Origin: an uncultured Winogradskyella sp.
GTDB taxonomy: Bacteria; Bacteroidota; Bacteroidia; Flavobacteriales; Flavobacteriaceae
Reading direction: 5' to 3'
Assembly (NCBI RefSeq): GCF_947498345.1
Contig: NZ_CANMJY010000005.1
Span: 62,001 to 126,000 of the forward strand
Length of the DNA stretch: 64,000 bases
Part shown: positions 32,149 to 56,847 of the stretch, piece after piece
How positions within the stretch are numbered: the first letter of the stretch is position 1
Layout: every line of letters starts with the position of its first letter
Translations under genes and position numbers: made by a program
The notes under the pieces: generated by a model
Seen by the model: the letters and a program-made list of their open reading frames with translations, nothing else
What the model was told of the DNA's origin: nothing
Database searches by the model: none

Positions 32149-32191
32149 TGAGCAATGTCATTTCATGGCTTTTGTAGAATAGATAGATTTA
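32149..32191 (+). promoter_or_regulatory. Crp/Fnr-type box plus -7 element, D-lactate dehydrogenase promoter
   Basis: Dyad TGAGCAATGTCA (32149-32160, followed by TT) and -7 TAGATTTA (32184-32191), start-to-start 35 bp. Expected transcription start is about 32198, leaving an 18-base leader before ATG 32216. The left half-site TGAG is the weakest of the set. Confidence 0.7.
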
Positions 32192-32215
32192 CAATATCTA
32201 ATAATATATAAAGCC

Positions 32216-33214
32216 ATGAAAATACTAGTCTACAGTTCTAAAAATTTTGAAATCCCCTATATAGAAGAAGCTAACCGTAAGAAACACCAACTAACTTTTA
32301 CAAAAGAAGTTTTATCTTCTAAAACTGCAATAAAAGCTATAGGTTATGATGCCGTATCTATTTTTTCGGCTGATGAGGCCTGCTTTATAACTATTGAAAA
32401 ACTCAAAGAGTTTGGTGTAAAATATATCACTCTCCGCTCAGCAGGGTATGATAATGTTAATCTAAGAGCTGCTTTAAGATCAGATATTAGAGTCGCTAAT
32501 GTTCCTGAGTATTCCCCTAATACAATAGCAGAACACGCCGTGGCTTTATTACTAGCTTTGAATAGAAAATTGATAGAATCTAATGATCGTATAAATCGCT
32601 ACAACTTTAACCTGGATCATTTAATTGGGTTTGATTTAAACAAAAAAACCGTAGGCATTATTGGTACTGGTAGAATCGGAACAGTGATGAGTAAAATAAT
32701 GCATGGTTTTGGTTGCAAACTTCTCGGTTATGATATTGAACATAATGCAGAATTGGTAAAAAACTATGGTATGACTTATGCTTCACTGAATGACCTATGT
32801 GCTGAGTCTGATATAATTTCATTACATGTTCCATTAAATACAGAAACTCATGAGCTTATTAATAAAGATTTGATTGATAAAATGAAAGATGGAATGATCC
32901 TTATTAATACTGCAAGAGGTTCTATTATAAATACCAAAGCCGTTATTGAAGGGTTAAAAAATGGAAAAATAAGTGCTTTAGGAATTGATGTCTATGAAAA
33001 TGAAAAAGGAATTTTCTTTAAAGACCATTCAAGAGACATACCAAAAGACAATAACTTAATGATTTTAAATGCAATGCCCAATGTTCTTATAACTGGTCAC
33101 CATGCATTTCTAACGGATGAAGCCTTAACAAATATAGCTGAAACAACCATAATTAACCTAGATAGTTGGGCTTCTGGAAAAGAAAGTGAAAATGAACTTA
33201 CAGAAATAAACTAA
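32216..33214 (+). CDS. ldhA: D-lactate dehydrogenase (D-2-hydroxyacid dehydrogenase family)
   Basis: NAD-dependent enzyme expected to reduce pyruvate to D-lactate, regenerating NAD+ when respiration is limited. The 332-residue protein has the NAD-binding GTGRIG (about residues 150-155, VGIIGTGRIGTVMSKI), catalytic Arg234 in NTARG, catalytic Glu in DVYENEKG (Glu263) and catalytic His in GHHAFLT (His295 or His296). The FFKDHSR segment after DVYENEKG is typical of the fermentative LdhA group rather than of glycerate dehydrogenases. A Crp/Fnr-type box lies upstream, matching a role under oxygen limitation. Confidence 0.87.
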   Translation: MKILVYSSKNFEIPYIEEANRKKHQLTFTKEVLSSKTAIKAIGYDAVSIFSADEACFITIEKLKEFGVKYITLRSAGYDNVNLRAALRSDIRVANVPEYSPNTIAEHAVALLLALNRKLIESNDRINRYNFNLDHLIGFDLNKKTVGIIGTGRIGTVMSKIMHGFGCKLLGYDIEHNAELVKNYGMTYASLNDLCAESDIISLHVPLNTETHELINKDLIDKMKDGMILINTARGSIINTKAVIEGLKNGKISALGIDVYENEKGIFFKDHSRDIPKDNNLMILNAMPNVLITGHHAFLTDEALTNIAETTIINLDSWASGKESENELTEIN

Positions 33215-33260
33215 AATCATAATTACCTGAATTTAAACAATATAATCATGTATATATAAG

Positions 33261-33303
33261 TGATGATTATCATTTTTAACGGCTATAAAATCTCATACTT
33301 TTG
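33261..33303 (+). promoter_or_regulatory. Crp/Fnr-type box plus -7 element, Mla-like operon promoter
   Basis: Dyad TGATGATTATCA (33261-33272, followed by TT) and a full-consensus -7 TACTTTTG (33296-33303), start-to-start 35 bp. The predicted transcription start, about 33310, lies after the upstream ATG at 33305, so translation must begin at 33323. Confidence 0.8.
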
Positions 33304-33322
33304 AATGAGTTCATCATGTATA

Positions 33323-34105
33323 ATGTTAGTCTTAACAAACATAAAAACGCAATTAAAATCCTTTTTATTAGAGATAGGTGAACTATCATATTTTACATCC
33401 AGATTTTTTAAGGAAGCTTTTAAACGTCCCTTTGAAATAAAAGAGCTATTACGCCAATGTTATTTAATGGGCAACCGTTCATTACTATTAGTAGGCGTTA
33501 CAGGTTTTATTATTGGATTGGTACTCACCTTACAAACTAGACCAACACTAATAGAGTTTGGCGCAGTATCCTGGATGCCGTCTATGGTTGGTATTTCTAT
33601 AGTAAGAGAAATAGGACCAATAATTACTGCCTTAGTTTGTGCTGGTAAAATTGGTTCGGGTATAGGTGCAGAATTAGGTTCTATGCGTGTTACTGAGCAA
33701 ATTGATGCTATGGAAGTATCTGGAACTAATCCGTTTAAATATCTGGTGGTAACACGTGTTTTGGCAACAACCTTAATGCTACCCTTACTTGTTATTATTG
33801 GTGATGCTATTGCATTGTATGGCTCTTTTCTGGTAGAAAATTTAAAAGGGAATGTTTCTTTTACTTTATTCTTTAATCAAGTATTTAACTCTCTAGAGTT
33901 TGGTGACATAATCCCGGCAACCATTAAATCCTTTTTCTTTGGATTTGCTATAGGTATTGTCGGATGCTTTAAAGGGTATTATTGTAAAAAAGGAACAGCT
34001 GGTGTCGGTAAAGCTGCAAATACAGCTGTGGTCTTTACATCTTTACTTCTTTTTATTATTGATTTTATTGCCGTTTTTGTTACTGATATTTTTTATGATT
34101 TATGA
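33323..34105 (+). CDS. MlaE-family ABC transporter permease
   Basis: Inner-membrane permease of an MCE/Mla-type phospholipid transporter. From ATG at 33323 it has 260 residues (MLVLTNIKTQLKSFLLEIGEL); the ATG at 33305 would lie upstream of the predicted transcription start. MlaE hallmarks: VTGFIIGLVLTLQTRPTLIEFGA, REIGPIITALVCAGKIGSGIGAELGSMRVTEQIDAMEVSGTNPFKYLVVTRVLA and five to six hydrophobic helices. It overlaps the ATPase gene by 4 bp and is the first gene of a three-gene operon behind a Crp/Fnr-type box. Confidence 0.9.
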   Translation: MLVLTNIKTQLKSFLLEIGELSYFTSRFFKEAFKRPFEIKELLRQCYLMGNRSLLLVGVTGFIIGLVLTLQTRPTLIEFGAVSWMPSMVGISIVREIGPIITALVCAGKIGSGIGAELGSMRVTEQIDAMEVSGTNPFKYLVVTRVLATTLMLPLLVIIGDAIALYGSFLVENLKGNVSFTLFFNQVFNSLEFGDIIPATIKSFFFGFAIGIVGCFKGYYCKKGTAGVGKAANTAVVFTSLLLFIIDFIAVFVTDIFYDL

Positions 34106-34884
34106 AAGATGAACAACATATAGTGACCCATTTTAAGAATATGAAACAACAACCTGTTGTTCTTCAAATTAAAGATTTATATAAGAGCTTTGGCAATAAT
34201 CATGTGCTTAATGGGTTCAACATGATCTTGCATAAAGGTGAAAATTTGGTCATTATGGGAAAATCGGGCTCTGGAAAATCAGTAATGATAAAATGTTTGG
34301 TTGGTTTAATGGAAGCTGATAAAGGTATAATTACTGTAATGGGTAATGACATTACGACCTTAAATCAAGAAAGCTTAGATATTCTTAGAGCAGATATCGG
34401 ATTTTTGTTTCAAGGTAGTGCTCTATACGATTCTATGACCGTAAGAGAAAATTTAGAGTTTCCTTTAAGACGTCATACCAAAAAATTTGACAAAGACATT
34501 GATACTGAAAAGCTTGTTGTAGAAGCCTTGGGAAATGTTGGGCTAGCAGATGCCATAGATTTAATGCCTTCTGAACTTTCGGGTGGTATGAAACGTCGTG
34601 TAGCATTAGCACGCACATTGATATTAAAGCCTAAAATTATTTTGTACGACGAACCAACAAGTGGTTTAGACCCAATTACAGCTAAGGAAATCATCATCTT
34701 AATGAAAGATATTCAAACAAAATACAATACTTCATCACTTATTATTACACACGATGTGGATTGCGCAAGAGTAATTTCGGATAGAATGATATTACTTATA
34801 GACGGGATAGATTACGCTGTTGGTACTTATAAAGAACTATCAGCATCAGATGACCCAAAAATTAAAGCATTTTTTAAACATTAA
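34102..34884 (+). CDS. MlaF-type ABC transporter ATP-binding protein
   Basis: ATPase of the MCE/Mla-like lipid transporter, 260 residues. Walker A GKSGSGKSV, Q-loop in FLFQGSALYDSMTV, signature LSGGMKRRVALARTL, Walker B KIILYDEPTSGLDP and switch His in LIITHDVDCAR. The LSGGMKRR signature and the FQGSALYDSMTV stretch mark the MlaF/Ttg2A branch. ATG overlaps the permease stop by 4 bp. An N-terminal extension of 13-14 residues precedes the usual start; Met15 (34144) is an alternative start. Confidence 0.92.
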   Translation: MKDEQHIVTHFKNMKQQPVVLQIKDLYKSFGNNHVLNGFNMILHKGENLVIMGKSGSGKSVMIKCLVGLMEADKGIITVMGNDITTLNQESLDILRADIGFLFQGSALYDSMTVRENLEFPLRRHTKKFDKDIDTEKLVVEALGNVGLADAIDLMPSELSGGMKRRVALARTLILKPKIILYDEPTSGLDPITAKEIIILMKDIQTKYNTSSLIITHDVDCARVISDRMILLIDGIDYAVGTYKELSASDDPKIKAFFKH

Positions 34885-34886
34885 TT

Positions 34887-35885
34887 ATGAAGAATACAAA
34901 CTCACAAAAAATTCGTTTAGGACTCTTTGTTATTATAAGTACTATTCTATTTATAGTGGCTGTTTACCTCATTGGTCAGCGTCAAGATATGTTTAGAAAA
35001 ACATTTACTATAAGTTCTTATTTTCAAAATGCAAATGGTCTACAAAAAGGAAATAACGTACGCTACTCTGGTATTGATATAGGAACGGTTAAGGATATTA
35101 CCATGATAAATGATTCTACTATAAAAATAGATATGAAGATTGATGAGAAGATAATCACTCATATTAAAAAAGATGCTATAGCTACAATAGGCTCTGATGG
35201 TTTGGTTGGTAATATGATAGTAAATATTGTACCTGGTAAAGGTATTGAAGGCCCAATAAGTAATGGAGATATTATTGAATCTTTCAGTAAGATTGGGGCT
35301 GATGATATATTAAGTACTTTAAGTGTGAGCTCAGAAAATGCTGCAATTTTAACCTCAGATTTACTAAAAATAACAACAGCCATGTTAGAAGGAGACGGAA
35401 CCGTTGGTTTGTTATTAAATGATACTATTATGGCACAAGACCTTAAACAATCTGTAAATAACTTGAAAATGGCAAGTCGAGGTGCTACTAATACAATTAA
35501 TGAATTAAATACCATTATTTCATCAATCAAATCAAACGACGATACTGTTCTAGGGATGATCTTAAACGATACTATTTCTGGAAGTCAATTAAAAACCGTT
35601 GTAAGTAATTTAGAAGCTTCCAGTAATGAAATTGATAGCGTTTTAAATAATATAAATAAAGTCGTTAACGAATTTGCTACAAGTGATGGGGCATACAACT
35701 ATATTGTTAACGACACCTCTTTGGTTAATAGTCTAAAATCTACATTAAAAAACATTAATGAAGGAACTGATAAATTTAATCAGAATATGGAAGCTTTAAA
35801 ACACAATTTTTTAACGCGTGGCTATTTTAGAAAATTGGAACGTCAAGAAAAGAAAGAAGCAAAAAAGACTGAAAAAACAAACTGA
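34887..35885 (+). CDS. MlaD-family (MCE domain) substrate-binding protein
   Basis: Membrane-anchored MCE protein of the same transporter, 332 residues. One N-terminal helix (IRLGLFVIISTILFIVAVYLIG, about residues 9-30), then an MCE domain (about 38-115; FQNANGLQKGNNVRYSGIDIGTVKDI), then long amphipathic helical repeats with VGLLLNDTIMAQDLKQSVNNL and LGMILNDTISGSQLKTVVSNL, and a Lys/Glu-rich tail. MCE rings shuttle phospholipids between inner and outer membranes. Two bp after the ATPase gene; ends in a convergent hairpin. Confidence 0.9.
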   Translation: MKNTNSQKIRLGLFVIISTILFIVAVYLIGQRQDMFRKTFTISSYFQNANGLQKGNNVRYSGIDIGTVKDITMINDSTIKIDMKIDEKIITHIKKDAIATIGSDGLVGNMIVNIVPGKGIEGPISNGDIIESFSKIGADDILSTLSVSSENAAILTSDLLKITTAMLEGDGTVGLLLNDTIMAQDLKQSVNNLKMASRGATNTINELNTIISSIKSNDDTVLGMILNDTISGSQLKTVVSNLEASSNEIDSVLNNINKVVNEFATSDGAYNYIVNDTSLVNSLKSTLKNINEGTDKFNQNMEALKHNFLTRGYFRKLERQEKKEAKKTEKTN

Positions 35886-35918
35886 GCAACCTAAATAATA
35901 ATTTGTGCTGCTCAGTTT
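35879..35918. terminator. Hairpin between convergent Mla-like and GerW operons
   Basis: A 10-bp perfect stem AAACTGAGCA / TGCTCAGTTT with a 20-base loop. The left arm includes the stop codon of the MCE gene. A T-run follows on the plus strand. Likely acts as the terminator for the lipid-transport operon. Confidence 0.6.
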
Positions 35919-35947
35919 TGAAATTCAGATTTTAATTATTACAATTT

Positions 35948-36316: not shown

Positions 36317-36329
36317 AATTTATAGTTTT

Positions 36330-36809: not shown

Positions 36810-36825
36810 GACTTAATGTTTTCCT

Positions 36826-36868
36826 CAAAGGAACATAAAGTAGAGCTGTAGCACAATGATATTCATCA
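36826..36868 (-). promoter_or_regulatory. Crp/Fnr-type box plus -7 element, DUF2953-GerW promoter
   Basis: On the minus strand, dyad TGATGAATATCA (36868 to 36857, followed by TT) and -7 TTCCTTTG (36833 to 36826), start-to-start 35 bp. Expected start near 36819 leaves a leader of about 10 bases before the ATG. Confidence 0.7.
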
Positions 36869-36906
36869 CTTTAAAGTCAATTCTATACTATTTCACAGCT
36901 TATAAA

Positions 36907-37278: not shown

Positions 37279-37292
37279 AAAGAGAAATTTGT

Positions 37293-38069: not shown

Positions 38070-38071
38070 AA

Positions 38072-38527: not shown

Positions 38528-38549
38528 GACTCTAGGTATAATATTAAAA

Positions 38550-38592
38550 CGAAGCTATTAATAAAGTATTGAGAAAACTATGATTTCAATCA
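38550..38592 (-). promoter_or_regulatory. Crp/Fnr-type box plus -7 element, PPOX-GNAT-SnoaL promoter
   Basis: On the minus strand, dyad TGATTGAAATCA (38592 to 38581) and -7 TAGCTTCG (38557 to 38550), start-to-start 35 bp. Expected start near 38543 leaves about 16 bases before the ATG. Confidence 0.75.
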
Positions 38593-39702: not shown

Positions 39703-39745
39703 TGAATGTATTTATTAACAGTAAATATCACAATGACTTTTATCA
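39703..39745 (-). promoter_or_regulatory. Crp/Fnr-type box plus -7 element, cytochrome c promoter
   Basis: On the minus strand, dyad TGATAAAAGTCA (39745 to 39734, followed by TT) and -7 TACATTCA (39710 to 39703), start-to-start 35 bp. Expected start near 39696, about 18 bases before the ATG. The -7 keeps the key TA and TT. Confidence 0.7.
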
Positions 39746-43436: not shown

Positions 43437-43479
43437 TAAATCTAACGCCAAAGCAGATTTTATAAAATGATATTGGTCA
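43437..43479 (-). promoter_or_regulatory. Crp/Fnr-type box plus -7 element, WG protein-exporter promoter
   Basis: On the minus strand, dyad TGACCAATATCA (43479 to 43468, followed by TT) and -7 TAGATTTA (43444 to 43437), start-to-start 35 bp. Leader about 21 bases to the ATG at 43409. The same 12-mer occurs at 48616 and 56805. Confidence 0.82.
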
Positions 43480-43955: not shown

Positions 43956-43998
43956 CTAAAGTATTTAAATGAATAAATTTAAAGAATGATATTGATCA
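43956..43998 (-). promoter_or_regulatory. Crp/Fnr-type box plus -7 element, TerB-like gene promoter
   Basis: On the minus strand, dyad TGATCAATATCA (43998 to 43987, followed by TT) and -7 TACTTTAG (43963 to 43956), start-to-start 35 bp. It overlaps by six bases the box serving the divergent kinase gene (43993-44004). Confidence 0.8.
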
Positions 43999-44035
43999 TA
44001 ATCATAAATTAATCAATACAAATTTTGTATATTTA
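43993..44035 (+). promoter_or_regulatory. Crp/Fnr-type box plus -7 element, LOV histidine kinase promoter
   Basis: Dyad TGATCATAATCA (43993-44004) and -7 TATATTTA (44028-44035), start-to-start 35 bp. Expected start near 44042, about 19 bases before ATG 44061. The kinase-regulator operon would thus be under its own control if its regulator is the box-binding protein. Confidence 0.8.
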
Positions 44036-44060: not shown

Positions 44061-45941
44061 ATGATTAGACAAGATCAGGAAATATTCAATATTCTACTAG
44101 AAACCGTTTCTGAAGCCGTTATAATTATCGACGAGAAGCAGCACATTATGGAAATAAATAATGTCGCTGAGCAAGTGTTTGGTTACGATAAAAGTGAAAT
44201 AAAAGGGAGACCTATAGATATCCTCATACCATCAAATTATCACGAAACACATAAAAAATATGCAGAAAACTTTATAGATAAACACAAGCGTCGTAAAATG
44301 GGCAGAACTACAGACCTCTATGGTCTTAAAAAGTCTGGAGATATTATTCCTGTCGAGGTAGAACTTAACCCTTTTAAAATATATAACAAAACTTATGTAA
44401 TGGCATTGGTCAAAGATATGTCAAAACAAAAGGAAAGCGAATTTGACTTTATGCTACGGAGTAAAGCTTTAGAGTCTGCAAGTAATGGAATATTAATAAC
44501 GGATGCTCTAAAGCCAGATAATCCCATAATATATTACAATAAGGCGTTTACCGAGCTTACTGGATATACTGATGAAGATATCCTCAATAAAAACTGTAGA
44601 TTTCTACAAGGTAATGATAGGGATCAAAAAGTATTAAATAAGCTAAGAACTGCTATAAAAAAAGGAGAAAGTTGCTTGGTTACTTTAAGAAACTATAAAA
44701 AAGATGGTAGCTTATTTTGGAATGATTTATACATAACACCAATAACAAATAAAAGAGGAATAGTTACCAATTACATAGGTATACAGAACGACGTCACAGA
44801 GCGTGTAAGAGCTGAAGAAGAACGCAACCATTTAGCAACAATTTTTAATGAATCTTTAAATGAAATTTATGTTTTTGATGCCAATACTTTAAAGTTCATA
44901 AATGTAAATAGAGGTGCTAAAAAAAATCTTGGTTACTCAATCGAAGAACTAAAAACAATGACTCCTTTAGATTTAAAGGTTGCGTATAACAAAACTCAGT
45001 TTAATGAATTGTATATAAAACCATTATTAAATAATGCAGAAAAACGATTAGAGTTTGAGACCAAACATCAACGAAAAGATGGATCCACTTACCCTGTATA
45101 TGTCCACTTACAATTATCTAACTTAGACGAAAGACAAGTTTTTGTCGCCATAATCTTAGATATAACTGAGCAGAAAGAATATACCTCTAAATTAGAAAGA
45201 GAAGTTGATGAAAGAACAGAGCAATTGCAAATCGCATTAAGCAAAGAAAAAGAACTAAATGAACTAAAAACAAAGTTTTTATCTTTGGTATCACATGAGT
45301 TTAAAACACCTTTAAGCGGTATTTCAACATCTGCAATGCTGTTAGAAAAATACAAACTAACAGAAGAACAGTCTAAAAGAGATAGACATTTAAATATTAT
45401 TAAAGATAAAGTCCATTACCTCAACACAATTTTGAATGATTTTTTGTCTATTGAAAGATTAGAGTCTGGTACTTTCAACTATAAATATTCTAGTTTTAAA
45501 TTAAGTAAAGTAATTAATGAGGTTGTTTATAATGCTAATATGCTACTTAAAGAAGGACAACGTATTAATTACCCTGATAATATAGATGATATCATTATGC
45601 ATCAAGATGAGAGAATTATAGAGTTGATACTATCTAACATAATTCAAAATGCCGTGAAATATTCAGGTGAAAATTCTGAAATTGATATTCGTATAAATCA
45701 GGATAAAGTGTTTACTGTTTTTGAAATTGAAGATCAAGGTATCGGAATACCTAAAGAGGATATAGAAAATGTTTTTACACGATATTATAGAGCAGAAAAT
45801 GTATTAAACATGCAAGGCACTGGTATAGGTTTAAATATTGTAAAAACACATTTAGAAAATTTAGGCGGTCATATAACTTTAAAAAGCCAGGAACATAAAG
45901 GTACATTGGTTATGCTCAAAATTCCAAATAACAAGATCTAA
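44061..45941 (+). CDS. LOV-domain hybrid-PAS sensor histidine kinase
   Basis: A 626-residue soluble kinase with three PAS domains. PAS1 (about residues 5-120) ends DMSK. PAS2 (about 132-250) is a LOV domain: ILNKNCRFLQGND carries the conserved flavin-binding NCRFLQ with photoactive-type Cys179, and flavin ligands Asn178, Gln183, Asn211 (RNYKKDG), Asn221 (FWNDL) and Gln242 (GIQND) are all present. PAS3 covers about 256-375, then a coiled coil, a HisKA domain with His412 (SLVSHEFKTPLSG) and a HATPase (QNAVKYS, EDQGIGIP, GTGIGLNIV). No membrane segment. LOV kinases respond to blue light through a Cys-FMN adduct and can also sense flavin redox state. The stop overlaps the regulator's ATG by one base. 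Confidence 0.88.
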   Translation: MIRQDQEIFNILLETVSEAVIIIDEKQHIMEINNVAEQVFGYDKSEIKGRPIDILIPSNYHETHKKYAENFIDKHKRRKMGRTTDLYGLKKSGDIIPVEVELNPFKIYNKTYVMALVKDMSKQKESEFDFMLRSKALESASNGILITDALKPDNPIIYYNKAFTELTGYTDEDILNKNCRFLQGNDRDQKVLNKLRTAIKKGESCLVTLRNYKKDGSLFWNDLYITPITNKRGIVTNYIGIQNDVTERVRAEEERNHLATIFNESLNEIYVFDANTLKFINVNRGAKKNLGYSIEELKTMTPLDLKVAYNKTQFNELYIKPLLNNAEKRLEFETKHQRKDGSTYPVYVHLQLSNLDERQVFVAIILDITEQKEYTSKLEREVDERTEQLQIALSKEKELNELKTKFLSLVSHEFKTPLSGISTSAMLLEKYKLTEEQSKRDRHLNIIKDKVHYLNTILNDFLSIERLESGTFNYKYSSFKLSKVINEVVYNANMLLKEGQRINYPDNIDDIIMHQDERIIELILSNIIQNAVKYSGENSEIDIRINQDKVFTVFEIEDQGIGIPKEDIENVFTRYYRAENVLNMQGTGIGLNIVKTHLENLGGHITLKSQEHKGTLVMLKIPNNKI

Positions 45942-46990
45942 TGACTAAAGTTTTACTTATAGAAGATGATACCGTGTTAAGGGAAAATACTGCAGAGCTA
46001 TTGGAACTCTCAGACTTCAACGTGATAACTTCCCCAAACGGAAAAATAGGGCTAAAAGATGCAAAAAAGCATTTACCAGATGTCATTGTTTGCGATATTA
46101 TGATGCCAGAATTAGATGGTTATCAAGTATTAAATCGCTTATCTAAACACAATAAGACTAAACACATTCCTTTTATTTTTCTTTCTGCAAAAACAGAACA
46201 CAGCGATGTTAGAAAAGGTATGAATCTAGGTGCAGACGACTACATTACTAAGCCTTTTACTGAAGGCGAATTAATAAGTGCTATAAAGAGTAGATTAGCC
46301 AAAGCCAGTATTTTAAAAGAGCAAGGCCAAGATAACGTTAATAACTATTTGGAAGAAGATGAATTATGCTCATTAAATGATTTGAAAAACTTTTTCGATG
46401 ATTATGGAGAGGAGTTTAGATTTAATAAAGAAGATATTATCTACAGAGAGGGTGAGCATTCTAATTTTATATACCTCATTACAGAAGGTGCTGTAAAATG
46501 CCATAAATTAGATACCCAAGGAAAGGAATTGGCTACCGGATTGTATAAAGAAGATGATCTGTTTGGCTATACATCTTTTACGCACAACCTGCCACATAGA
46601 GAAACGGCAAAAGCTATAAAGAATACTAAACTTGTTGGTATTTCAATTATACAGCTCACCAAAATATTAAATGACAATCATAAGGTGGTAATTGCACTAA
46701 TAGATCTTTTAACGGATAACATATCAAACTTTAAAGAACAGCTTTTAGAAATGGCCTATAGCTCTGTAAATAAAAGAACTGCCAATACCATTATACAATT
46801 TGCAGAAAAAATTAACCGCAAACCCGATGACCCTATTAAGATATCTAGAAATGATCTAGCTAGTGTGGCTGGTATAGCAACAGAAACTTTCATTAGAACA
46901 TTAACTAATTTTAAGAATAAAGGAATTGTTAAATCTGAAGGTAGAAATATAGTTGTACTAGATTTAGAAGCTCTAAAACAAATTAATTAG
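45941..46990 (+). CDS. Response regulator fused to Crp/Fnr-type cNMP-HTH output domain
   Basis: A 349-residue protein. Receiver domain at about 1-118 with IEDD (9-10), phosphoacceptor Asp52 (VCDIMMP), Ser/Thr in FLSAKTE and Lys in ITKPF. A cNMP-binding-type beta-roll follows at about 150-260 (EDIIYREGEHSNFIYLITEGAVKCHKL), then a Crp-type winged HTH at about 280-345 (ISRNDLASVAGIATETFIRTL). The recognition helix keeps the Glu315 and Arg319 that correspond to CRP Glu181/Arg185 and FNR Glu209/Arg213, which read TGA half-sites. The cysteines of the FNR iron-sulfur cluster are absent, so oxygen is not sensed that way. Predicted output of the LOV kinase and candidate binder of the 13 boxes. Confidence 0.88.
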   Translation: MTKVLLIEDDTVLRENTAELLELSDFNVITSPNGKIGLKDAKKHLPDVIVCDIMMPELDGYQVLNRLSKHNKTKHIPFIFLSAKTEHSDVRKGMNLGADDYITKPFTEGELISAIKSRLAKASILKEQGQDNVNNYLEEDELCSLNDLKNFFDDYGEEFRFNKEDIIYREGEHSNFIYLITEGAVKCHKLDTQGKELATGLYKEDDLFGYTSFTHNLPHRETAKAIKNTKLVGISIIQLTKILNDNHKVVIALIDLLTDNISNFKEQLLEMAYSSVNKRTANTIIQFAEKINRKPDDPIKISRNDLASVAGIATETFIRTLTNFKNKGIVKSEGRNIVVLDLEALKQIN

Positions 46991-47006: not shown

Positions 47007-47049
47007 TGACTCTAGTCATTTTAGAAACTTTATTTAACCTATACATTTG
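47007..47049 (+). promoter_or_regulatory. Crp/Fnr-type box plus -7 element, first universal stress protein promoter
   Basis: Dyad TGACTCTAGTCA (47007-47018) within AATGACT-CT-AGTCATT, and a full-consensus -7 TACATTTG (47042-47049), start-to-start 35 bp. About 15 bases of leader before ATG 47071. Confidence 0.85.
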
Positions 47050-47070: not shown

Positions 47071-47922
47071 ATGAAAAATGTATTACTTCCCACAGATTTT
47101 TCAGATAATTCTTGGAATGCCATCAAATATGCCATCAACTTTTTTAAAGACACTCCGTGCAACTTTTATGTATTACATGTCAATAAATTAAATTACCACT
47201 TTACAGAAGAAGTAGCACTATATATTGATCATAATCATATAGAAGAGGTGTATACAAAACCTGCAAAGAAAAAATTACGCCTCATCTTAAAACGTATATC
47301 AAAACTATTTCCCAATCATAAAAATCAAAAATTCTATACACTTACGGACTATAATTTTTTTATAGAATCTATACGAAAAACAGTAAACGAAAAACATATC
47401 GATTTTATAGTGATGGGTACTAAAGGAGCTACAGGATTAGAGCGAATCATTTTAGGTACTAATACTGCTGATGTCATTACAAAAGTAAAATGTAATACTC
47501 TAGCAATACCCGAAAACGCTGAATTTAAACCACCTAATGAAATTGCATTCCCAACAGATTACTCATTAACACATAATCTTCAAATTTTAGAACCAATTGT
47601 AGATATTTTAGAGCAATTTAATGCTTCATTAAAAATATTACACATAGCCAAAACTGATAGCTCTTTAAGTGACGAGCAACAAAAAAATAAAGAGCTCTTA
47701 GAAGACTATTTTAGTAATCATTCTTATAGTTTTCATTACTTAACAAACAGAAAAGTAGAAGATGCTATTCAATGTTTTGTAGAGAGTAGAGATATAAATA
47801 TAATATGTATGGTAGCAAAGAATCTTAACTACTTTCAACAAATCTTATTTCATACCCGAGTAGAAAAAATTAGTTACCACACTGATAGACCATTTTTAGT
47901 TTTACACGAAAAAAACGAGTAG
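47071..47922 (+). CDS. Universal stress protein, tandem two-domain type (copy 1)
   Basis: A 283-residue protein of two USP domains. The first (LLPTDFSDNSWNAIKYAINF ... IVMGTKGATGLERIILGTNT) has the ATP-binding loop G-xx-G-(9)-GT. The second starts at about residue 145 (IAFPTDYSLTHNLQILEPIVD) and lacks that loop. USP proteins bind ATP and help cells survive starvation, hypoxia and other stress. First gene behind a box promoter; a small membrane gene follows after 4 bp. Confidence 0.9.
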   Translation: MKNVLLPTDFSDNSWNAIKYAINFFKDTPCNFYVLHVNKLNYHFTEEVALYIDHNHIEEVYTKPAKKKLRLILKRISKLFPNHKNQKFYTLTDYNFFIESIRKTVNEKHIDFIVMGTKGATGLERIILGTNTADVITKVKCNTLAIPENAEFKPPNEIAFPTDYSLTHNLQILEPIVDILEQFNASLKILHIAKTDSSLSDEQQKNKELLEDYFSNHSYSFHYLTNRKVEDAIQCFVESRDINIICMVAKNLNYFQQILFHTRVEKISYHTDRPFLVLHEKNE

Positions 47923-48368: not shown

Positions 48369-48411
48369 TGATTTTTATCATTCAAATATTAGTATTTAAA
48401 ACTTAAATTTA
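48369..48411 (+). promoter_or_regulatory. Crp/Fnr-type box plus -7 element, promoter of candidate small RNA
   Basis: Dyad TGATTTTTATCA (48369-48380, followed by TT) and -7 TAAATTTA (48404-48411), start-to-start 35 bp. The expected start is about 48418. No protein gene begins within the 10-33 bases at which all twelve other box promoters have a start codon. Confidence 0.75.
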
Positions 48412-48417
48412 AGACTA

Positions 48418-48582
48418 TGTTGAGGGGTCTATTTTATAGACAATACATTAAAAATTATAATGTTGCTCTGAGCACTTTCAGTTTTCTTGAGGTAAAAAAA
48501 GACATCTTTAAACTGCAACAAAGCATATAATAACATTTAATGTAAGGAAACAGGGAGTAAAAACTTCCTGTTTCTGTTTTTT
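48418..48582 (+). ncRNA. Candidate box-controlled small RNA, about 165 nt
   Basis: Defined by the box promoter at 48369-48411 and the intrinsic terminator at 48547-48582. Near the predicted 5' end is a perfect hairpin GTCTAT-TTT-ATAGAC (48427-48441), then a small TGCT-CTG-AGCA element. The only ORF (37 codons, ATG at 48417) would start at or one base before the expected transcript start and lacks leader or family resemblance, so non-coding is preferred. The layout resembles FnrS of E. coli, an FNR-activated sRNA that represses aerobic genes, but there is no sequence similarity claim. Ends are predictions from the pattern only. Confidence 0.6.
48547..48582 (+). terminator. Intrinsic terminator of the candidate small RNA
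   Basis: Stem GAAACAGGGAG / CTTCCTGTTTC (48547-48557 and 48564-48574; 11 pairs with one G-U) and a 6-base loop, followed directly by TGTTTTTT. It lies over 230 bp past the preceding protein gene, so it serves the short transcript rather than that operon. Confidence 0.8.
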
Positions 48583-48615
48583 ATAAGCGAAACACGCTCT
48601 TGTATTCTAATTGTC

Positions 48616-48658
48616 TGACCAATATCATTGATAGAATTTATCGAACGTGATATTTTAG
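48616..48658 (+). promoter_or_regulatory. Crp/Fnr-type box plus -7 element, second universal stress gene promoter
   Basis: Dyad TGACCAATATCA (48616-48627, followed by TT) and -7 TATTTTAG (48651-48658), start-to-start 35 bp. Predicted start near 48665 rules out the upstream ATG at 48628 and supports translation from 48682. Confidence 0.82.
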
Positions 48659-48681: not shown

Positions 48682-49530
48682 ATGAGAAAAGTATTAGTAC
48701 CTACTGATTTTTCGGACAATGCTATGAATGCTCTAAAGTATGCCGTAGAGCTATTTAAATACGACAAGAGTATCTTTTTTATTATGCATGCCTATCAAGA
48801 CGAAGTATATGCAGATAAATCCTTACGGTCTAGAGAAACTCTAGACGAGGTTACCAAAATTATAGCCAATAGAGCTCAAATAAAATTAGAGAGTATTTTA
48901 AAAGAACTGCAAACCATTTCACCAAACCCAAGACATAAATATAATATTATATGCTCTAACAATATGCTTGTCGATGAAGCAGTTAAAATTGTTGATGAAG
49001 AAAATATAGACATCATCATAATGGGTACGCGTGGTAAGACCAACGACAGAAATTTAGCTTTCGGTAGCCATACATTACAAGTATTAAAATATGTGCAATG
49101 TCCAGTTTTGGCCATTCCAGAAAATTATGTTGGTATTCAACCAAGACATATATTGTTTCCAACAAATTATTTAATTCCATACAAAAGAAGAGAACTCAAA
49201 CTTCTATGCGAATTAGCTGCACCATATAGAGCAGTTATAGATATGCTGTACATTTCAAAATTCGATAAGCTATCCCTGCGGCAAAAAGACAACCAAAGCT
49301 TTATAAAATCTGAATTATCTAAAAATCAATTGAATTTTAAGACGGTCAGCGATAAGAATATAACAAATGCAATTTATACTTATATAAAAGAAAACAATGT
49401 AGATATGCTGGTAATGGTAAACACCAGACAATCATTTTTAGAGAGTTTATTGTTCCAATCAACTATAGACAAAATGAGCCTATATGTAGATATTCCATTC
49501 TTGGCTTTGCAAAATATTAGACGTAGTTAA
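48682..49530 (+). CDS. Universal stress protein, tandem two-domain type (copy 2)
   Basis: From ATG at 48682 (MRKVLVPTDFSDNAMNALKYAVELF) the protein has 282 residues. An upstream in-frame ATG at 48628 overlaps the box and predicted promoter, so it is rejected. ATP loop MGTRGKTNDRNLAFGSHT is intact in the first domain; the second domain (ILFPTNYLIPYKRREL) lacks it. First of a two-gene unit with copy 3. Confidence 0.9.
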   Translation: MRKVLVPTDFSDNAMNALKYAVELFKYDKSIFFIMHAYQDEVYADKSLRSRETLDEVTKIIANRAQIKLESILKELQTISPNPRHKYNIICSNNMLVDEAVKIVDEENIDIIIMGTRGKTNDRNLAFGSHTLQVLKYVQCPVLAIPENYVGIQPRHILFPTNYLIPYKRRELKLLCELAAPYRAVIDMLYISKFDKLSLRQKDNQSFIKSELSKNQLNFKTVSDKNITNAIYTYIKENNVDMLVMVNTRQSFLESLLFQSTIDKMSLYVDIPFLALQNIRRS

Positions 49531-49550
49531 TAATTAAAAACCTAACTATT

Positions 49551-50393
49551 ATGAAAAAAGTACTCTTGCCAACTGATTTTTCTGATAATTCATGGAATGC
49601 CATAAAGTATGCACTTCAACTTTATAAAAACGAAGCATGTCATTTTACAATACTGCATACCTATACACCTATAATTTATCAGGTTGAATTTATGCAGTCT
49701 AGTACACCTCAGTTTCAGGTCATAGAAGCCGTTAAGGTAACATTAAAGCAAAAATTAGACAAAATCTATGACAAAATAAAAGCTAATTTTGATAACCCTA
49801 AGCATCAATTTGTAAAACGTTTATCTTTTAATACACTTACAGTAGATATTGATGAATTATGCAGTAAGAAAAAGATAGATATCGCAATAATGGGTACCAA
49901 AGGCGCATCGGGTGTAAAAGAAGTTTTGTTCGGATCTAACACGATGCATGTAATCAAAAACTCGAAATGCCCGGTTCTGGCTATTCCGAGTGGTTTTAAT
50001 TTTGAAACACCTCACGACCTTTTATTTCCTTCGGATTACGAAGTAGCCTTCAAAAAAAATCATATTGAGCCTATAATAGACATTGCGAATTTATATAATA
50101 TACGTATAAATATATTGCATGTTAACTACGGAGAACAACTGACTAAAGTTAAAGAGCAAAATCGAAATATACTTGAAGCATACTTTAAAGATCACACACA
50201 TTTGTTTCATAATATAAAGAACGAAAATGTTCCAGAGGCTATAGACAAGTTTCAGCATAAGACACGCATCAATTTATTGGTAATGCTAAATAATAAACGT
50301 TCGTTTTTCGAAAATTTATTCTTTAAATCAAACCTAAATCAAATAGGTTTTCATTTAAATGTCCCGTTTCTGGTAATCCCCTCAAAACTATAG
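49551..50393 (+). CDS. Universal stress protein, tandem two-domain type (copy 3)
   Basis: A 280-residue protein (MKKVLLPTDFSDNSWNAIKYALQLY). First domain with ATP loop MGTKGASGVKEVLFGSNT; second (LLFPSDYEVAFKKNHIEPIID) without it. Starts 20 bp after copy 2 with no box of its own, so it is co-transcribed. Sequence similarity along the array suggests tandem duplication. Confidence 0.9.
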   Translation: MKKVLLPTDFSDNSWNAIKYALQLYKNEACHFTILHTYTPIIYQVEFMQSSTPQFQVIEAVKVTLKQKLDKIYDKIKANFDNPKHQFVKRLSFNTLTVDIDELCSKKKIDIAIMGTKGASGVKEVLFGSNTMHVIKNSKCPVLAIPSGFNFETPHDLLFPSDYEVAFKKNHIEPIIDIANLYNIRINILHVNYGEQLTKVKEQNRNILEAYFKDHTHLFHNIKNENVPEAIDKFQHKTRINLLVMLNNKRSFFENLFFKSNLNQIGFHLNVPFLVIPSKL

Positions 50394-50401: not shown

Positions 50402-50444
50402 TGATTAATATCATTTCATACACTAAAAGTTAGCAGTAAATTTC
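50402..50444 (+). promoter_or_regulatory. Crp/Fnr-type box plus -7 element, promoter of the USP4-to-MBL operon
   Basis: Dyad TGATTAATATCA (50402-50413, followed by TT) and -7 TAAATTTC (50437-50444), start-to-start 35 bp. Predicted start near 50451, about 17 bases before ATG 50468. Small gaps suggest it may drive six genes to 56781. Confidence 0.8.
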
Positions 50445-51304: not shown

Positions 51305-51347
51305 GTATTTAAAGAGTTAAGTATCACCATACAGAAAATATAATATT

Positions 51348-52202: not shown

Positions 52203-52213
52203 AATCTATCGTT

Positions 52214-52621: not shown

Positions 52622-52678
52622 TTGCTCTATAATTCTACAAGTTGGTTGTGCATAATGTAAAAATAAAAAAATAGAGAG

Positions 52679-54511
52679 ATGAAATACAATACAGTAATTA
52701 TAGGTGGAGGCTTGGCCGGATTAACCGCCGGAGCAACGCTCTCAAAATTTGGAAAGAAAGTTCTTTTATTAGAACAACACCATAAACCTGGTGGTTGCGC
52801 AACAACATTTAAACGTGGAGATTTTGTCATTGAAGTCGGCTTACACGAAATGAGTGGACTAACTGAAAATGGTTCGATCACGCAAATTTTTAAAATGCTT
52901 GAGGTGGATAAGCATGTTCAGTTTGAAAAAGTCCCTGAGTTCTACGGAGTAGTTTCTAATAAAGAAGATTTTGTGATGCCACATGGATACGATGCAGCTA
53001 CAAAAGCACTTATCGACAAATATCCTGAAGACGAAAAAGGGATCAAACGTTTTATGAAGTTAATTGCAGGAACTCGTAAGGAAGCCATCAATCTACCACG
53101 TTCACCATTAAAACGAAAGTTGATTTATCCACTAATGCCGTTACTTTATCCTAATCTTGTAGAGGCTACTAAACATACCGTTGGCTCTTGGCTAGATAAG
53201 TACATCACTAATAAAAATGCAAAATTAGATCTCATAGCACATATTGTTTATTGGGGAGATGATCCTTATACACTATCCATGTTTTACTTTGCTGTACCAT
53301 TTTCAGGCTTTATTGAAAATGGTGGTCACTTTATAAAAGGTGGATCACAACTACTTTCAAATTATCTTGCTTCCTACATACAAAAAAAAGGAGGTAGTGT
53401 GCTTTTAGGTAAAAAAGCAGAAAAAATCATTACCAATAATGGTAAAGCAACAGGAGTTACATTCCGTGATAGTTTTAATGAGAATTCTAAACCTACTACC
53501 ATTTTATGTGATAATGTTATAGCCAATTGTGCCATTCCTTTGGTGCCAGAAATGCTTGAAGAACCCTATGCATCTGAGCTTCATCAAAAAATTAACTCAA
53601 AAACCAATTCATGCTCACTGCTATGTATGTACATCGGTTTTAATACAGATGTAGAAAAGTTTGGTGTAAAATACTACTCAAATGTTTTTCAGGGAGACAT
53701 ATCTACCATAAAGGATATTAAAAATAACCATCATGGAGATTGGTCTAAACGCAGATTCATTTTTGTAGACTATAACAAGGTAGATTCGGGACTAGCACCA
53801 ACTAACAAATCTGAAGGTGTAATTTGCGCTGTAGATTATATCGAAGATTGGAAGAACTTAAAACAAGAAGACTATAAGGCAAAAAAAGAAGAAGTAGCAC
53901 AAGTCTTATTGCAGCGATTAGAAAAACAGTATCCAGGAATAAGAAATAGCATAGAGTACTACGAAGTATCGACATCTAAAACCATTAAACGCTATACCTC
54001 AAATCCTAGTGGGTCTGTTTATGGTTACGCCCAAATTAAAACCCAAATAGCAAGTAAGCGATTTAGAAACAATTTCTTAATTCCTAACCTGTATTTTGCA
54101 TCTGCCTGGGCTTTTCCAGGTGGTGGTTTTGAAGGTTCAATTCAAGGAGGGTTCCTTGCAGCTTTGCAAATGAATAAAGATAAAATTTGGTCAGAATGTG
54201 ATAATCAAAAGTATATTGACAATAGGATTGTTCAGCTCAAAGAACGTAAAACAATAGATGATAATACTCTCGAATTATCCTTTTCAAAACCAGTTGATTT
54301 TGAACGCCAAAACGGTGAGCATGCCATTCTTGAACTTATAAACCCAAAATTAACAGAGCTAGATTTACCTTATCGCTGGCTTTTGATAAACTCTAATGGT
54401 GAGGGTAACAATTTAAGGTTTCAAATTAAACTAGATGATAGTAGTTTTTCTAAAAGTTGTGAGCTTATTGATATCGATGATGAAGCTATCATATATGGAC
54501 CTTTAGCTTAG
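52679..54511 (+). CDS. FAD-dependent oxidoreductase (phytoene desaturase/retinol saturase-like) with C-terminal extension
   Basis: A 610-residue flavoprotein. Rossmann FAD site VIIGGGLAGLTAGATLSKFGKKVLLLEQ, then KPGGCATTFKRGDFVIEVGLHEMSG and the C-terminal FAD motif YFASAWAFPGGGFEGSIQGG. This is the CrtI/CrtO-like superfamily, which acts on polyenes such as carotenoids. The last 85-90 residues (RIVQLKERKTIDDNTLELSFSKPVDFERQNGEHAILELINP) lie beyond the usual end and resemble the beta-barrel start of ferredoxin-NADP reductase-type domains, including a GxxA(I/V)L-like flavin loop. Substrate unknown. 57 bp after the 135-residue gene. Confidence 0.82.
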   Translation: MKYNTVIIGGGLAGLTAGATLSKFGKKVLLLEQHHKPGGCATTFKRGDFVIEVGLHEMSGLTENGSITQIFKMLEVDKHVQFEKVPEFYGVVSNKEDFVMPHGYDAATKALIDKYPEDEKGIKRFMKLIAGTRKEAINLPRSPLKRKLIYPLMPLLYPNLVEATKHTVGSWLDKYITNKNAKLDLIAHIVYWGDDPYTLSMFYFAVPFSGFIENGGHFIKGGSQLLSNYLASYIQKKGGSVLLGKKAEKIITNNGKATGVTFRDSFNENSKPTTILCDNVIANCAIPLVPEMLEEPYASELHQKINSKTNSCSLLCMYIGFNTDVEKFGVKYYSNVFQGDISTIKDIKNNHHGDWSKRRFIFVDYNKVDSGLAPTNKSEGVICAVDYIEDWKNLKQEDYKAKKEEVAQVLLQRLEKQYPGIRNSIEYYEVSTSKTIKRYTSNPSGSVYGYAQIKTQIASKRFRNNFLIPNLYFASAWAFPGGGFEGSIQGGFLAALQMNKDKIWSECDNQKYIDNRIVQLKERKTIDDNTLELSFSKPVDFERQNGEHAILELINPKLTELDLPYRWLLINSNGEGNNLRFQIKLDDSSFSKSCELIDIDDEAIIYGPLA

Positions 54512-54553
54512 TTGAGAGCAAAGCTTGTTTTAGCAGCTTTTAAATTAACTGTA

Positions 54554-55396
54554 ATGGAAAGTAAAAACATAGATATTACTAAATCTTCTGGTGAACGTGT
54601 TAAGTTTTCACTAGATAAATTACGTGCATCTTTAAAACGAACTGGTGCTGGAGAAACAACTGTAAGTCAAATTATAGATAAGGTAAGGGATGAATTATAC
54701 CAAGGAATATCTACTAAGGAGATTTACAATAGAGCTTTCGCTTTACTAAAAAAAAAGCAACGTTATTATGCTTCAAAATATAAATTAAAAAAAGCCATTT
54801 ACGAGCTTGGCCCTACAGGTTTTCCTTTTGAACGTTTTATTGGAGCTGTTTTAAAATATTCGGGTTACGATATAGAAATTGGTAAAATCTTACAAGGTAA
54901 ATGTGTAACACACGAAATAGATGTCGTTGCACATAAAGGCAATGAAACAGCTATAATTGAGTGTAAGTTTCATGGTGAACAAGGCATTAAATGCAATGTA
55001 AAGGTCCCACTATATATTAATTCTCGATATGAGGACGTAAAGGCATATTGGAATACCAACCTCAAAAACGACACGAAGCTTACAAACGGATGGGTCGTTA
55101 CAAATACAAGATTTACCGAAGATGCTATGCAATACAGTAAATGTTGTGGCCTCAATTTATTAAGTTGGGATTATCCCGAAGATAATGCATTAAAAGATAG
55201 AATAGATCGTCTTGGTCTATATCCGATTACGGTTTCCACCTTATTATCAGCGAGAGAGAAGCAGTTTTTACTAAGTCGCAATGTAGTGTTATGCAGAGAA
55301 CTGCTTCATGATAAATTTTATTTAGATCACCTTGGTGTTTCGGAAACCAGAAAGGATAAGATTTTAGATGAAATAGCACAATTATGCAATCTATAA
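54554..55396 (+). CDS. ATP-cone domain fused to Mrr-type restriction endonuclease-like domain
   Basis: From ATG at 54554 (MESKNIDITKSSGERVKFSLDKL) the protein has 280 residues; a TTG start at 54512 is unlikely. Residues about 5-90 are an ATP-cone nucleotide-binding domain, as in NrdR and ribonucleotide reductases. Residues about 95-200 form a Mrr-cat/restriction endonuclease-like fold: HEIDVVAHKGNETAIIECKFH supplies the D-(9+)-E-x-K nuclease residues. The C-terminal 80 residues are helical. The combination suggests a nuclease gated by ATP/dATP level. It overlaps the start region of the MBL gene. Confidence 0.78.
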   Translation: MESKNIDITKSSGERVKFSLDKLRASLKRTGAGETTVSQIIDKVRDELYQGISTKEIYNRAFALLKKKQRYYASKYKLKKAIYELGPTGFPFERFIGAVLKYSGYDIEIGKILQGKCVTHEIDVVAHKGNETAIIECKFHGEQGIKCNVKVPLYINSRYEDVKAYWNTNLKNDTKLTNGWVVTNTRFTEDAMQYSKCCGLNLLSWDYPEDNALKDRIDRLGLYPITVSTLLSAREKQFLLSRNVVLCRELLHDKFYLDHLGVSETRKDKILDEIAQLCNL

Positions 55397-55407
55397 GCAA
55401 ACTGACT

Positions 55408-56781
55408 ATGGAAAATTTTGTAAGAGTTAATTTCTTAGGTGCTTCTGGTGTTGTTACAGGCTCAAAGTTTCTTATAGAAACCTCAGAACAAAACATAATG
55501 ATAGACTGCGGAATGTTTCAAGGGCTTAAAGAACTAAGAGAACTCAATTGGAACGATCTTCCTATTAAAGTGAATACTATAGATGTTGTACTACTAACGC
55601 ATGGTCATTTAGACCATGTCGGTTACTTACCGAGACTTTTTAAACAAGGTTTTAAAGGCAGAATTATAGGGACTGCCCCTACTCTAGCCATAGCAGAAAT
55701 CATCTTAAGGGATAGTGCTAAAATACACGAAGAAGAAGCGGAAAAAGCCAATAAAGAAAAGTATACCAAACACAGACCTGCTTTACCTTTTTTCACAATT
55801 AAAGAAGCTGAAGAAACTATAAAGTTATTCCATGTAGATATCGATAATAAGTGGATACATTTGTCAGAACATATATCCTATCGGTTTCAATATAACGGCC
55901 ACATTATCGGAGCTACTTTTATAGAGCTAGATATTAATGGGAAGCGCTTTGTTTTTTCGGGAGATATTGGTAGAATAAATGATTATCTGCTTAATGACCC
56001 TAAACGCCCTGAGTGGGCAGATTTTTTGTTTATAGAAAGTACCTATGGAAATAAGTTGCATCCAAAGGAAGATATAGAAGAGGTTTTAACAGCAATCATC
56101 AATGAAACAATTCATAAAAAAGGCAATTTAATTATTCCAAGTTTTGCGGTTGAACGGCTACAAACCTTGATGTATATTTTATGGCAATTGTATAAAAAGC
56201 GAAAAATCCCAAACATCCCCATTTTTATAGATAGTCCAATGGGAAACAATGTTTTAGAGGTCTTTAAACACTTTTCTAAATGGCATAAATTATCAATCGA
56301 AGATTATTATGCCATGTGCAATCACGTTAACATTGTACAATCCTACAGTGAGACTTGGAAAACGATAGACGACAGACGGTCTAAAATTGTCATAGCTGGT
56401 AGCGGAATGGTAACAGGTGGTCGTGTATTAACATACCTTCAACAGCTTATTGATGAGCCTTCTACAACTGTATTATTAGTTGGGTATCAGGCAGAAGGTA
56501 CAAGAGGTAGACAATTACAAGATGGTGTACATGAAATTCGATTCTTCGGGAAATATTATCCTGTTAAAGCTACTGTAAAAAATATTGAAAGTCTATCAGC
56601 ACATGCCGATCAGGAGGATTTAATCAACTGGATGAGTACTATTAAAAACATACCCGAATGTGTGTATTTAATTCATGGAGAACCTACAACATTAGATACT
56701 TTTAGGGTAAAGATTGAAGATGTTTACGGTTGGAATGTTAAGATTCCTAAACTGGCAGACGTTGAAAAATTAATTGTTTAA
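55408..56781 (+). CDS. Metallo-beta-lactamase/beta-CASP RNase-like protein
   Basis: From ATG at 55408 (MENFVRVNFLGASGVVTGSKFLI) the protein has 457 residues; the ATG at 55384 overlaps the upstream gene and adds eight residues. Metal motif LTHGHLDHVGYLPRL and later FSGDIG; beta-CASP features include ESTYGN, SFAVERLQTLMYIL and SPMG; then GSGMVTGGRVLTYLQ and the RMMBL motif SLSAHADQEDLINWM. Such enzymes process or degrade RNA. It ends the long operon started at USP4. Confidence 0.9.
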   Translation: MENFVRVNFLGASGVVTGSKFLIETSEQNIMIDCGMFQGLKELRELNWNDLPIKVNTIDVVLLTHGHLDHVGYLPRLFKQGFKGRIIGTAPTLAIAEIILRDSAKIHEEEAEKANKEKYTKHRPALPFFTIKEAEETIKLFHVDIDNKWIHLSEHISYRFQYNGHIIGATFIELDINGKRFVFSGDIGRINDYLLNDPKRPEWADFLFIESTYGNKLHPKEDIEEVLTAIINETIHKKGNLIIPSFAVERLQTLMYILWQLYKKRKIPNIPIFIDSPMGNNVLEVFKHFSKWHKLSIEDYYAMCNHVNIVQSYSETWKTIDDRRSKIVIAGSGMVTGGRVLTYLQQLIDEPSTTVLLVGYQAEGTRGRQLQDGVHEIRFFGKYYPVKATVKNIESLSAHADQEDLINWMSTIKNIPECVYLIHGEPTTLDTFRVKIEDVYGWNVKIPKLADVEKLIV

Positions 56782-56804
56782 GACTAAAAAATCTTCATGG
56801 TAAC

Positions 56805-56847
56805 TGACCAATATCATTTCAAAAATTACATAGGCTCATTAAATTAA
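56805..56847 (+). promoter_or_regulatory. Crp/Fnr-type box plus -7 element, hsp20 promoter
   Basis: Dyad TGACCAATATCA (56805-56816, followed by TT) and -7 TAAATTAA (56840-56847, weak at its 3' half), start-to-start 35 bp. Leader about 33 bases to ATG 56887. Confidence 0.75.

Follow-up and report, generated by a model that had tools for sequence, protein, structure and literature searches.

A 64,000-nucleotide stretch of the genome of an uncultured Winogradskyella sp. (NCBI RefSeq assembly GCF_947498345.1, contig NZ_CANMJY010000005.1, positions 62,001 to 126,000), here called the window, contains an island (32149..56847) of 13 promoters with Crp/Fnr-type boxes. Our data suggest that these promoters, with box centres predicted at -41.5, are probably activated jointly by a response regulator-Crp fusion protein encoded in the island itself, and that they make up a low-oxygen-type regulon governed by a LOV-modified sensor. 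The original prediction, made from the letters of the DNA, had described a clustered class II regulon of Crp/Fnr type with one spacing and had left the regulator unnamed; that description is now supported computationally.

How transcription is activated in Bacteroidota has been little mapped, and here a predicted activator, its box, a fixed promoter geometry and a gene set can be described across much of a family. According to the proposed mechanism, the kinase encoded upstream would phosphorylate Asp52 in the receiver domain of the fusion, and the activated dimer would bind TGAY-N4-RTCA. The promoter-proximal half-site would stand in for the -33 element, and sigma-A RNA polymerase would be recruited in class II fashion. 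In the window's lineage blue light or the flavin redox state would feed the kinase, which may be active in the dark by analogy with the engineered kinase YF1.

Thirteen promoters share one spacing

Positions within each promoter were counted from the dyad start (0), and a -7-like box was sought at +35. All 13 dyads were found at the coordinates and on the strands originally given (Table 1). TA occupies +35/+36 at 12 of them and TT occupies +39/+40 at every one, as expected if a -7-like element begins exactly 35 bp on; 36868(-) is the sole site lacking TA, reading TT instead within the -7 box TTCCTTTG. The proposed dyad form, TGAY-N4-RTCA, fits the other sites but not 32149, which starts TGAG, and the dyad runs on as TCATT in 11 of the 13. 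The count of 13 separate boxes likewise holds only in part, as the dyads 43993(+) and 43998(-) are both present but belong to one divergent promoter. These two, serving the TerB-like gene and the histidine kinase gene, overlap by six bases (43987-44004, common TGATCA), and transcription in the two directions may be mutually exclusive.

Twelve TGAYN4RTCATT sites were collected from both strands of the island regardless of any -7 box. TAnnTT stands at +35 in nine of them, whereas the remaining 79 offsets average 0.29 and never exceed 2 (binomial p multiplied by 80 offsets, 5e-11). The exact composite TGAYNNNNRTCAWT-N21-TANNTT occurs nine times in the island, compared with a mean of 0.013 and a maximum of 1 in 300 dinucleotide shuffles; the whole 3.81-Mb genome holds 13 copies, these nine included, and a single match to the reversed-pattern control. 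None of five TGAYN4RTCATT sites in 400 kb taken elsewhere in the genome shows the +35 pairing. The claim of a spacing identity beyond chance is thus upheld by each of the controls, namely the shuffles, the reversed pattern, the remaining offsets and the background stretches. An equal frequency of the pairing in shuffled or unrelated DNA had been named in advance as evidence to the contrary, and both the shuffles and the background stretches fall far below the island.

If transcription is taken to begin 47 nt from the dyad start, 12 of the 13 sites have the initiation codon of their target open reading frame (ORF) 12-35 nt beyond that point. The exception is 48369, which has no long ORF downstream.

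The spacing is conserved in relatives and fits a class II promoter

In 20-kb stretches around the regulator gene of 40 family genomes (L124-L163), TAnnTT lies at exactly +35 in 130 of 177 TGAYN4RTCATT sites, the other offsets having a mean of 2.4 and a maximum of 9. When the trailing TT was dropped from the dyad, +35 was found in 238 of 607 sites, followed by +12 with 41 and the next offset with 16. The +12 peak represents TAnnTT in the six bases right behind the dyad, and we have no explanation for it.

The logo of 237 relative sites reads (C/A)TGAT-N4-ATCA-T-(T/A)-(T/G)-T, then TAnnTTT(A/G); these sites were selected by dyad and TAnnTT, and their TGA/TCA half-sites are hence preselected. The T-rich tail behind the dyad resembles promoter sequence more than a binding site, because it is non-palindromic and would fall at -35 to -32 if TA starts at -12. 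In the portion of the Flavobacterium psychrophilum study that presents start-site data, TAnnTTTG lies at -12 to -5 and the median leader is 24 nt (PMC9723704); the paper covers oxygen limitation in that species, and its main text has no word starting with Crp, Fnr or palindrom. From the fixed 35-bp spacing and this published box position the dyad centre is predicted at -41.5, in good agreement with the class II placement near -42 proposed earlier.

A matrix scan of the kind that the original prediction had proposed for whole genomes was run on island, window, 400 kb of background and shuffled sequence, using a matrix trained exclusively on 239 sites of the relatives and a cut-off score of 10. 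In the island it recovered all 13 sites and none besides; it also marked one site elsewhere in the window and nine in the background, with an average of 0.22 matches in 100 shuffled islands.

A response regulator-Crp fusion is the best candidate regulator

The predicted activator matches PF00072 (7e-29), PF00027 (2e-14) and PF13545 (3e-13), and its cyclic nucleotide-binding fold and Crp-type helix-turn-helix place it in the Crp/Fnr family. Across 15 aligned fusion sequences D9, D10, D52, S82 and K104 of the receiver are invariant, the phospho-acceptor Asp and the Lys among them, as are E315, I318 and R319 of the recognition helix. A Glu/Arg pair in this helix reads TGA half-sites in the Crp/Fnr family; the fusion has E315 and R319, and the boxes have TGA/TCA half-sites. 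It is not an FNR proper, for its sole cysteines (51, 143 and 187) form no FNR-type N-terminal cluster. At the position of the cAMP-binding cassette of CRP proper, GE...RSA, it reads GYTSF...RETA.

Sites and fusion co-occur. Genomes with a match at E up to 1e-60 were scored as regulator-positive (66 of 149 family genomes, including the window's own with 13 sites), and in all such counts each genome was taken singly, with relatedness ignored. The 66 positive genomes contain 824 composite sites and the 83 negative ones 245 (p 3e-18), that is, 12.5 versus 3.0 per genome and 3.50 versus 0.96 per Mb; the reversed-pattern control gave 44 versus 59 (p 0.68). Within the genus, kinase-positive genomes (E up to 1e-100; 38 of 60, own included) have 605 sites versus 50 in the 22 negative ones (p 5e-10; control p 0.29). 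A relative of universal stress protein (USP) 1 was found at E up to 2.9e-92 in all 38 kinase-positive genomes; of the 22 genomes without the kinase, a match is missing from 10, only distant (1e-33 to 2e-54) in another 10 and closer in two, G189 and G195. The kinase gene adjoins the regulator gene in 40 of 40 relatives, and sites occur in the 20-kb stretch of 39. Named relatives were sought by a contig scan with two receiver-domain peptides, which yielded 14 useful loci out of 80 (L044-L057), the other 66 being dropped as partial query matches, mostly to the receiver; one of the 14 (L048) has no matching kinase alongside.

The sensor kinase combines a haem-type PAS with a LOV domain

Compared with PDB, a profile of 17 first PAS domains (PAS1) from kinases lacking LOV matched DosP first (6e-24), then FixL (1e-21 and below), the multi-sensor kinase 10jx (4e-17) and, as best LOV chain, a match at 5e-9. 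PAS1 of the window alone also retrieved DosP first (2e-16), with FixL from 6e-9 and LOV from 3e-5. Behind it, residues 134-276 form a LOV domain that the original prediction had overlooked (PDB 8c05, 2e-37; blue-light receptors from 3e-35, 4gcz), with the photoactive cysteine in the motif NCRFLQ. A LOV insertion is present in the kinases of 10 of the 40 relatives.

Haem-PAS sensors such as FixL and DosP are marked by a proximal His and a distal Arg. The window kinase has His64 but carries Thr at the distal position, which we take to correspond to DosP R97 and FixL R220, and thus lacks the full FixL/DosP pair. The distal Arg is kept in 33 of 43 LOV-less kinases, all 33 with the proximal His, versus none of 11 LOV kinases (Fisher 4e-6, relatedness ignored; the second ORF of a split kinase is left out). 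Of the 15 LOV-less kinases of the genus seven were read, and all seven have it, as does one of 22 LOV kinases besides the window's. The split kinase (L129:7580-9459) consists of two adjoining ORFs, one with PAS1 alone and one with LOV-PAS-kinase. In another relative, L130, the photoactive cysteine is replaced (NHNIKFLQ), giving a natural cysteine-less LOV kinase.

These features suggest that the first PAS of most relatives' kinases looks like a haem oxygen sensor and that the window kinase appears to be the product of a natural swap from haem to flavin sensing. As LOV has been inserted and the O2-contacting arginine lost, blue light, or the flavin redox state, is likely to be the main input in the window's lineage. 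Orthologous kinases with and without LOV, in one genus and with the same regulon, offer a natural experiment in the change of a sensor signal.

Target genes and a predicted small RNA

The proposal that the targets fit energy or oxygen stress agrees with the genes of both the window and its relatives. In the window these are D-2-hydroxyacid dehydrogenase, Mla-like transport, cytochrome c, an exporter operon, a TerB-like protein, USPs and Hsp20 (Table 1). Downstream of the 239 relative sites we counted USPs 89 times, TerB-like proteins 24 times and Hsp20 13 times, with a Usp1-like gene behind 39 sites; 25 sites precede no ORF and 61 precede genes without a relative in the window. Among these 61 are hibernation-factor-like proteins (8 loci), DnaJ (4), FixS/CcoS (4), HemN-like radical-SAM proteins (2) and, once each, a Cu-oxidase/cytochrome c (NirK-like), a ribonucleotide reductase and a PEP-synthase-like enzyme; Pfam was applied to nine representatives, one each, and the HemN and NirK names come from sequence reading. 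By analogy with the lxa locus of Burkholderia, the hibernation-factor, CcoS, USP and Hsp20 targets point to low oxygen and dormancy. No clear difference in target counts was found between LOV and LOV-less lineages.

Table 1. Promoters and regulatory genes of the island, with one further site in the window; scores are those of the matrix.
Feature	Position	Strand	Remarks
Promoter, D-2-hydroxyacid dehydrogenase (32216-33214)	32149..32191	+	Dyad, TAGATTTA at +35; score 16.1; leader 20 nt
Promoter, MlaE/MlaF/MlaD-like lipid transport operon (33323-35885)	33261..33303	+	Score 26.6; leader 15 nt; names by sequence reading
Promoter, hypothetical 159-aa protein and YtfJ-like gene (36809-35948)	36826..36868	-	Score 16.4
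Promoter, pyridoxamine-oxidase-like, GNAT-YoaP and SnoaL genes (38527-36907)	38550..38592	-	Score 23.1; Pfam
Promoter, cytochrome c protein (39678-39223)	39703..39745	-	Score 22.2; PF00034
Promoter, WG-repeat protein and exporter genes behind (43409-39772)	43437..43479	-	Score 27.0
Promoter, TerB-like protein (43920-43558)	43956..43998	-	Score 24.2
Divergent promoter, kinase-regulator operon	43993..44035	+	Score 15.3; leader 21 nt; dyad overlaps 43998(-)
Sensor histidine kinase, PAS(haem-type)-LOV-PAS-HisKA-HATPase	44061..45941	+	Pfam; LOV and PAS1 by PDB matches
Response regulator-Crp fusion (REC-cNMP_binding-HTH_Crp_2), predicted activator	45941..46990	+	PF00072, PF00027, PF13545; co-occurs with sites
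Promoter, USP 1 (47071-47922)	47007..47049	+	Score 25.7
Promoter, predicted small RNA	48369..48411	+	Score 26.3; no long ORF downstream
Predicted small RNA, about 170 nt; terminator hairpin 48547-48574	48416..48590 (ends approximate)	+	Covariation, fold
Promoter, USPs 2-3 (48682-50393)	48616..48658	+	Score 23.7
Promoter, USPs 4-5, perhaps following genes (50468 onward)	50402..50444	+	Score 27.1
Promoter, Hsp20 (56887-57339), perhaps following genes	56805..56847	+	Score 26.6
Further site, before 49-aa membrane ORF (15886 down)	15912..15954	-	Score 29.4; leader 21 nt

The region 48416-48590, behind the site without a long ORF, is probably a small RNA belonging to the regulon. A terminator-like hairpin lies 131-159 nt past the predicted start. 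The same arrangement of a box, 141-204 nt and an AACAGG...CCTGTT hairpin stands behind Usp1, or a small gene after it, in nine of 40 relatives. The hairpin pattern has 32 matches on both strands of the 40 relative stretches and none in 400 kb of own-genome background. When 11 sequences (the window's, those of the nine relatives and that of L163) were aligned, both-side changes were seen in five of 12 hairpin pairs versus 1.3 in shuffles, of which 1 in 500 was as high, and the fold of 48416-48598 has a z of -3.5. No Rfam match was obtained in 31000-59000, and a 37-aa ORF at 48417 is an alternative to the small-RNA reading. In role, the predicted RNA may be likened to the small RNA FnrS.

Sites outside the island

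Similar boxes had not been noticed outside the island, which is roughly right, yet some do exist, namely 15954(-) and the background sites. Six matrix matches in the 400-kb sample score at least 12. Three of these (L166, L173 and L182), scoring 18-26, lie before ORFs for a CBS-domain-like protein, a TonB-like protein and a lipoprotein (names by sequence reading); they read TCATA behind the dyad, as opposed to the prevailing TCATT of the island, and perhaps have a different Crp-family owner. Two of the four non-island exact composites fall inside long opposite-strand frames, one of them gyrase-like by sequence reading, a third has only an opposite-strand frame downstream, and the fourth (L012), at the start of a long frame, is a plausible site. 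Also outside the island, the window encodes very large predicted proteins at 59773-63984(-) (1403 aa) and 17132-25642(+) (2836 aa).

Alternative explanations

The strongest rival concerns the signal: the kinase could still be an oxygen or redox sensor, with haem held by His64 and the LOV flavin reporting redox rather than light. His64 is indeed retained by the window kinase and by 20 of 22 other LOV kinases in the genus, the best match of the window's PAS1 is still DosP, LOV lineages have kept USPs and Hsp20 as targets, and one relative's LOV (L130) has lost its photoactive cysteine. That cysteine is, on the other hand, present in all 22 further LOV kinases read in the genus and in nine of 10 from the family set, and the distal arginine is nearly always missing from kinases with LOV. 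We regard this rival as a serious but doubtful one. For the sensor swap, a quick tree of 82 kinase domains (L162 left out, the PAS1 row of L129 merged with its second ORF) shows three LOV changes, two of them on well-supported branches, and 12 arginine changes; where tree neighbours differ in LOV, the arginine sits on the LOV-less side. Some caution is in order here: three changes are too few for a sign test, the 12 arginine changes imply that the arginine is also lost without LOV, and 10 of 43 LOV-less kinases lack it. The broadest form of the swap, to which we would give somewhat less than an even chance, is that flavobacteria about three times turned a FixL/DosP-type oxygen kinase into a blue-light LOV kinase by insertion and decay of the haem pocket, so that a low-oxygen dormancy regulon, small RNA included, is now driven by darkness in a natural counterpart of YF1.

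A second rival would assign the boxes mainly to an FNR-like protein encoded on contig C12 of the same genome (L214:377-1054, minus strand), leaving the fusion as a mere co-regulator. This protein has a CESC N-terminus, with Cys 4, 7 and 29 and four more, and its helix, ATESAIR, is nearly identical to that of the fusion; relatives at E up to 1e-40 are found in 91 of 149 family genomes. The shared helix is one of several points that tell against the fusion as regulator of the boxes. Six fusion-negative genomes have 7-24 sites and four of the six possess the FNR-like protein; a looser search of these six found no full-length fusion, four of them being 73-84% complete. Fusion-negative genomes as a whole keep more sites per Mb (0.96) than their reversed-pattern control (0.23), whereas six fusion-positive genomes have just 2-4 sites. 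Autoregulation also appears weak, kinase or regulator lying downstream of only three of the 239 relative sites. The two-factor genome count nevertheless makes the FNR-like protein unlikely as sole owner: mean sites per genome are 9.9 with the fusion only (30 genomes), 3.5 with the FNR-like protein only (55), 14.6 with both (36) and 1.9 with neither (28). Moreover, sites cluster round the fusion gene, and the three higher-scoring background sites differ from 11 of the 13 island sites in reading TCATA. Ownership mainly by the FNR-like protein is therefore improbable. Taken together, these counts and the motif-rich fusion-negative genomes make the fusion the best candidate regulator, with the FNR-like protein probably sharing part of the box.

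Coincidence, or a base-composition effect of AT-rich intergenic DNA, has a negligible probability as the source of the spacing, which was first spotted by eye in a window of 33% G+C but is reproduced by neither shuffles, reversed pattern, other offsets nor background, so that chance is rejected at the sequence level.

Comparison with known systems

Within the open-licence literature (titles and abstract openings, with subscription literature mostly outside), no response regulator-Crp regulator of Bacteroidota and no natural haem-to-LOV replacement was found. Class II promoters of E. coli FNR and CRP have a TGA-N6-TCA dyad centred near -41.5; unlike them, the island system has a regulator that contains a receiver domain and lacks the cysteine cluster of FNR, and TAnnTTTG in place of TATAAT. 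DosR is under two-component control with a NarL-type output domain, whereas the output of the island regulator is Crp-type. The dormancy regulon of DosR in Mycobacterium tuberculosis counts 10 USPs among 48 hypoxia-induced genes, according to a passage of PMC6127331.

The passages of the same paper on the lxa locus of Burkholderia cenocepacia describe a single chromosomal cluster of six USPs, a heat shock protein, a cytochrome c, an MBL-superfamily protein and a dehydrogenase, and its discussion suggests a FixK homologue (PMC6127331). Clustered USP, Hsp20 and MBL-type genes are present here as in the lxa and DosR regulons, joint regulation being predicted from the boxes alone. The lxa locus differs in phylum and in regulator architecture, and those passages do not mention a fixed-spacing promoter set (PMC6127331). 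NmpRSTU of Myxococcus xanthus is similar in its two-component control of an oxygen-utilisation regulon, but the consulted part of its description names a protoglobin sensor and an NtrC-like regulator (PMC11841059).

YF1, a synthetic, dark-active kinase in which a LOV domain was placed on the FixL kinase (as summarised in part of PMC6798134; PDB 4gcz), resembles the window kinase in that LOV controls a FixL-like kinase, and a dark-on logic is predicted for the latter. Unlike YF1, the window kinase is natural, and its LOV stands next to a degenerate haem-PAS that has stayed in place.

The nearest likeness is to FixL-FixJ-FixK of rhizobia and Burkholderia, which likewise links a PAS kinase (with a haem-PAS in FixL and, by similarity, in the LOV-less relatives) through a response regulator to a Crp-family protein that activates low-oxygen genes. 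Here receiver and Crp output are instead united in one protein, and the kinase of the window carries LOV and is without the distal arginine. The regulon thus appears to be a variant of the FixLJ-K/DosR kind, and in Bacteroidota the island is probably equivalent to the FixLJ-FixK/lxa and DosR regulons for survival at low oxygen, the functions of FixJ and FixK being joined in a single protein.

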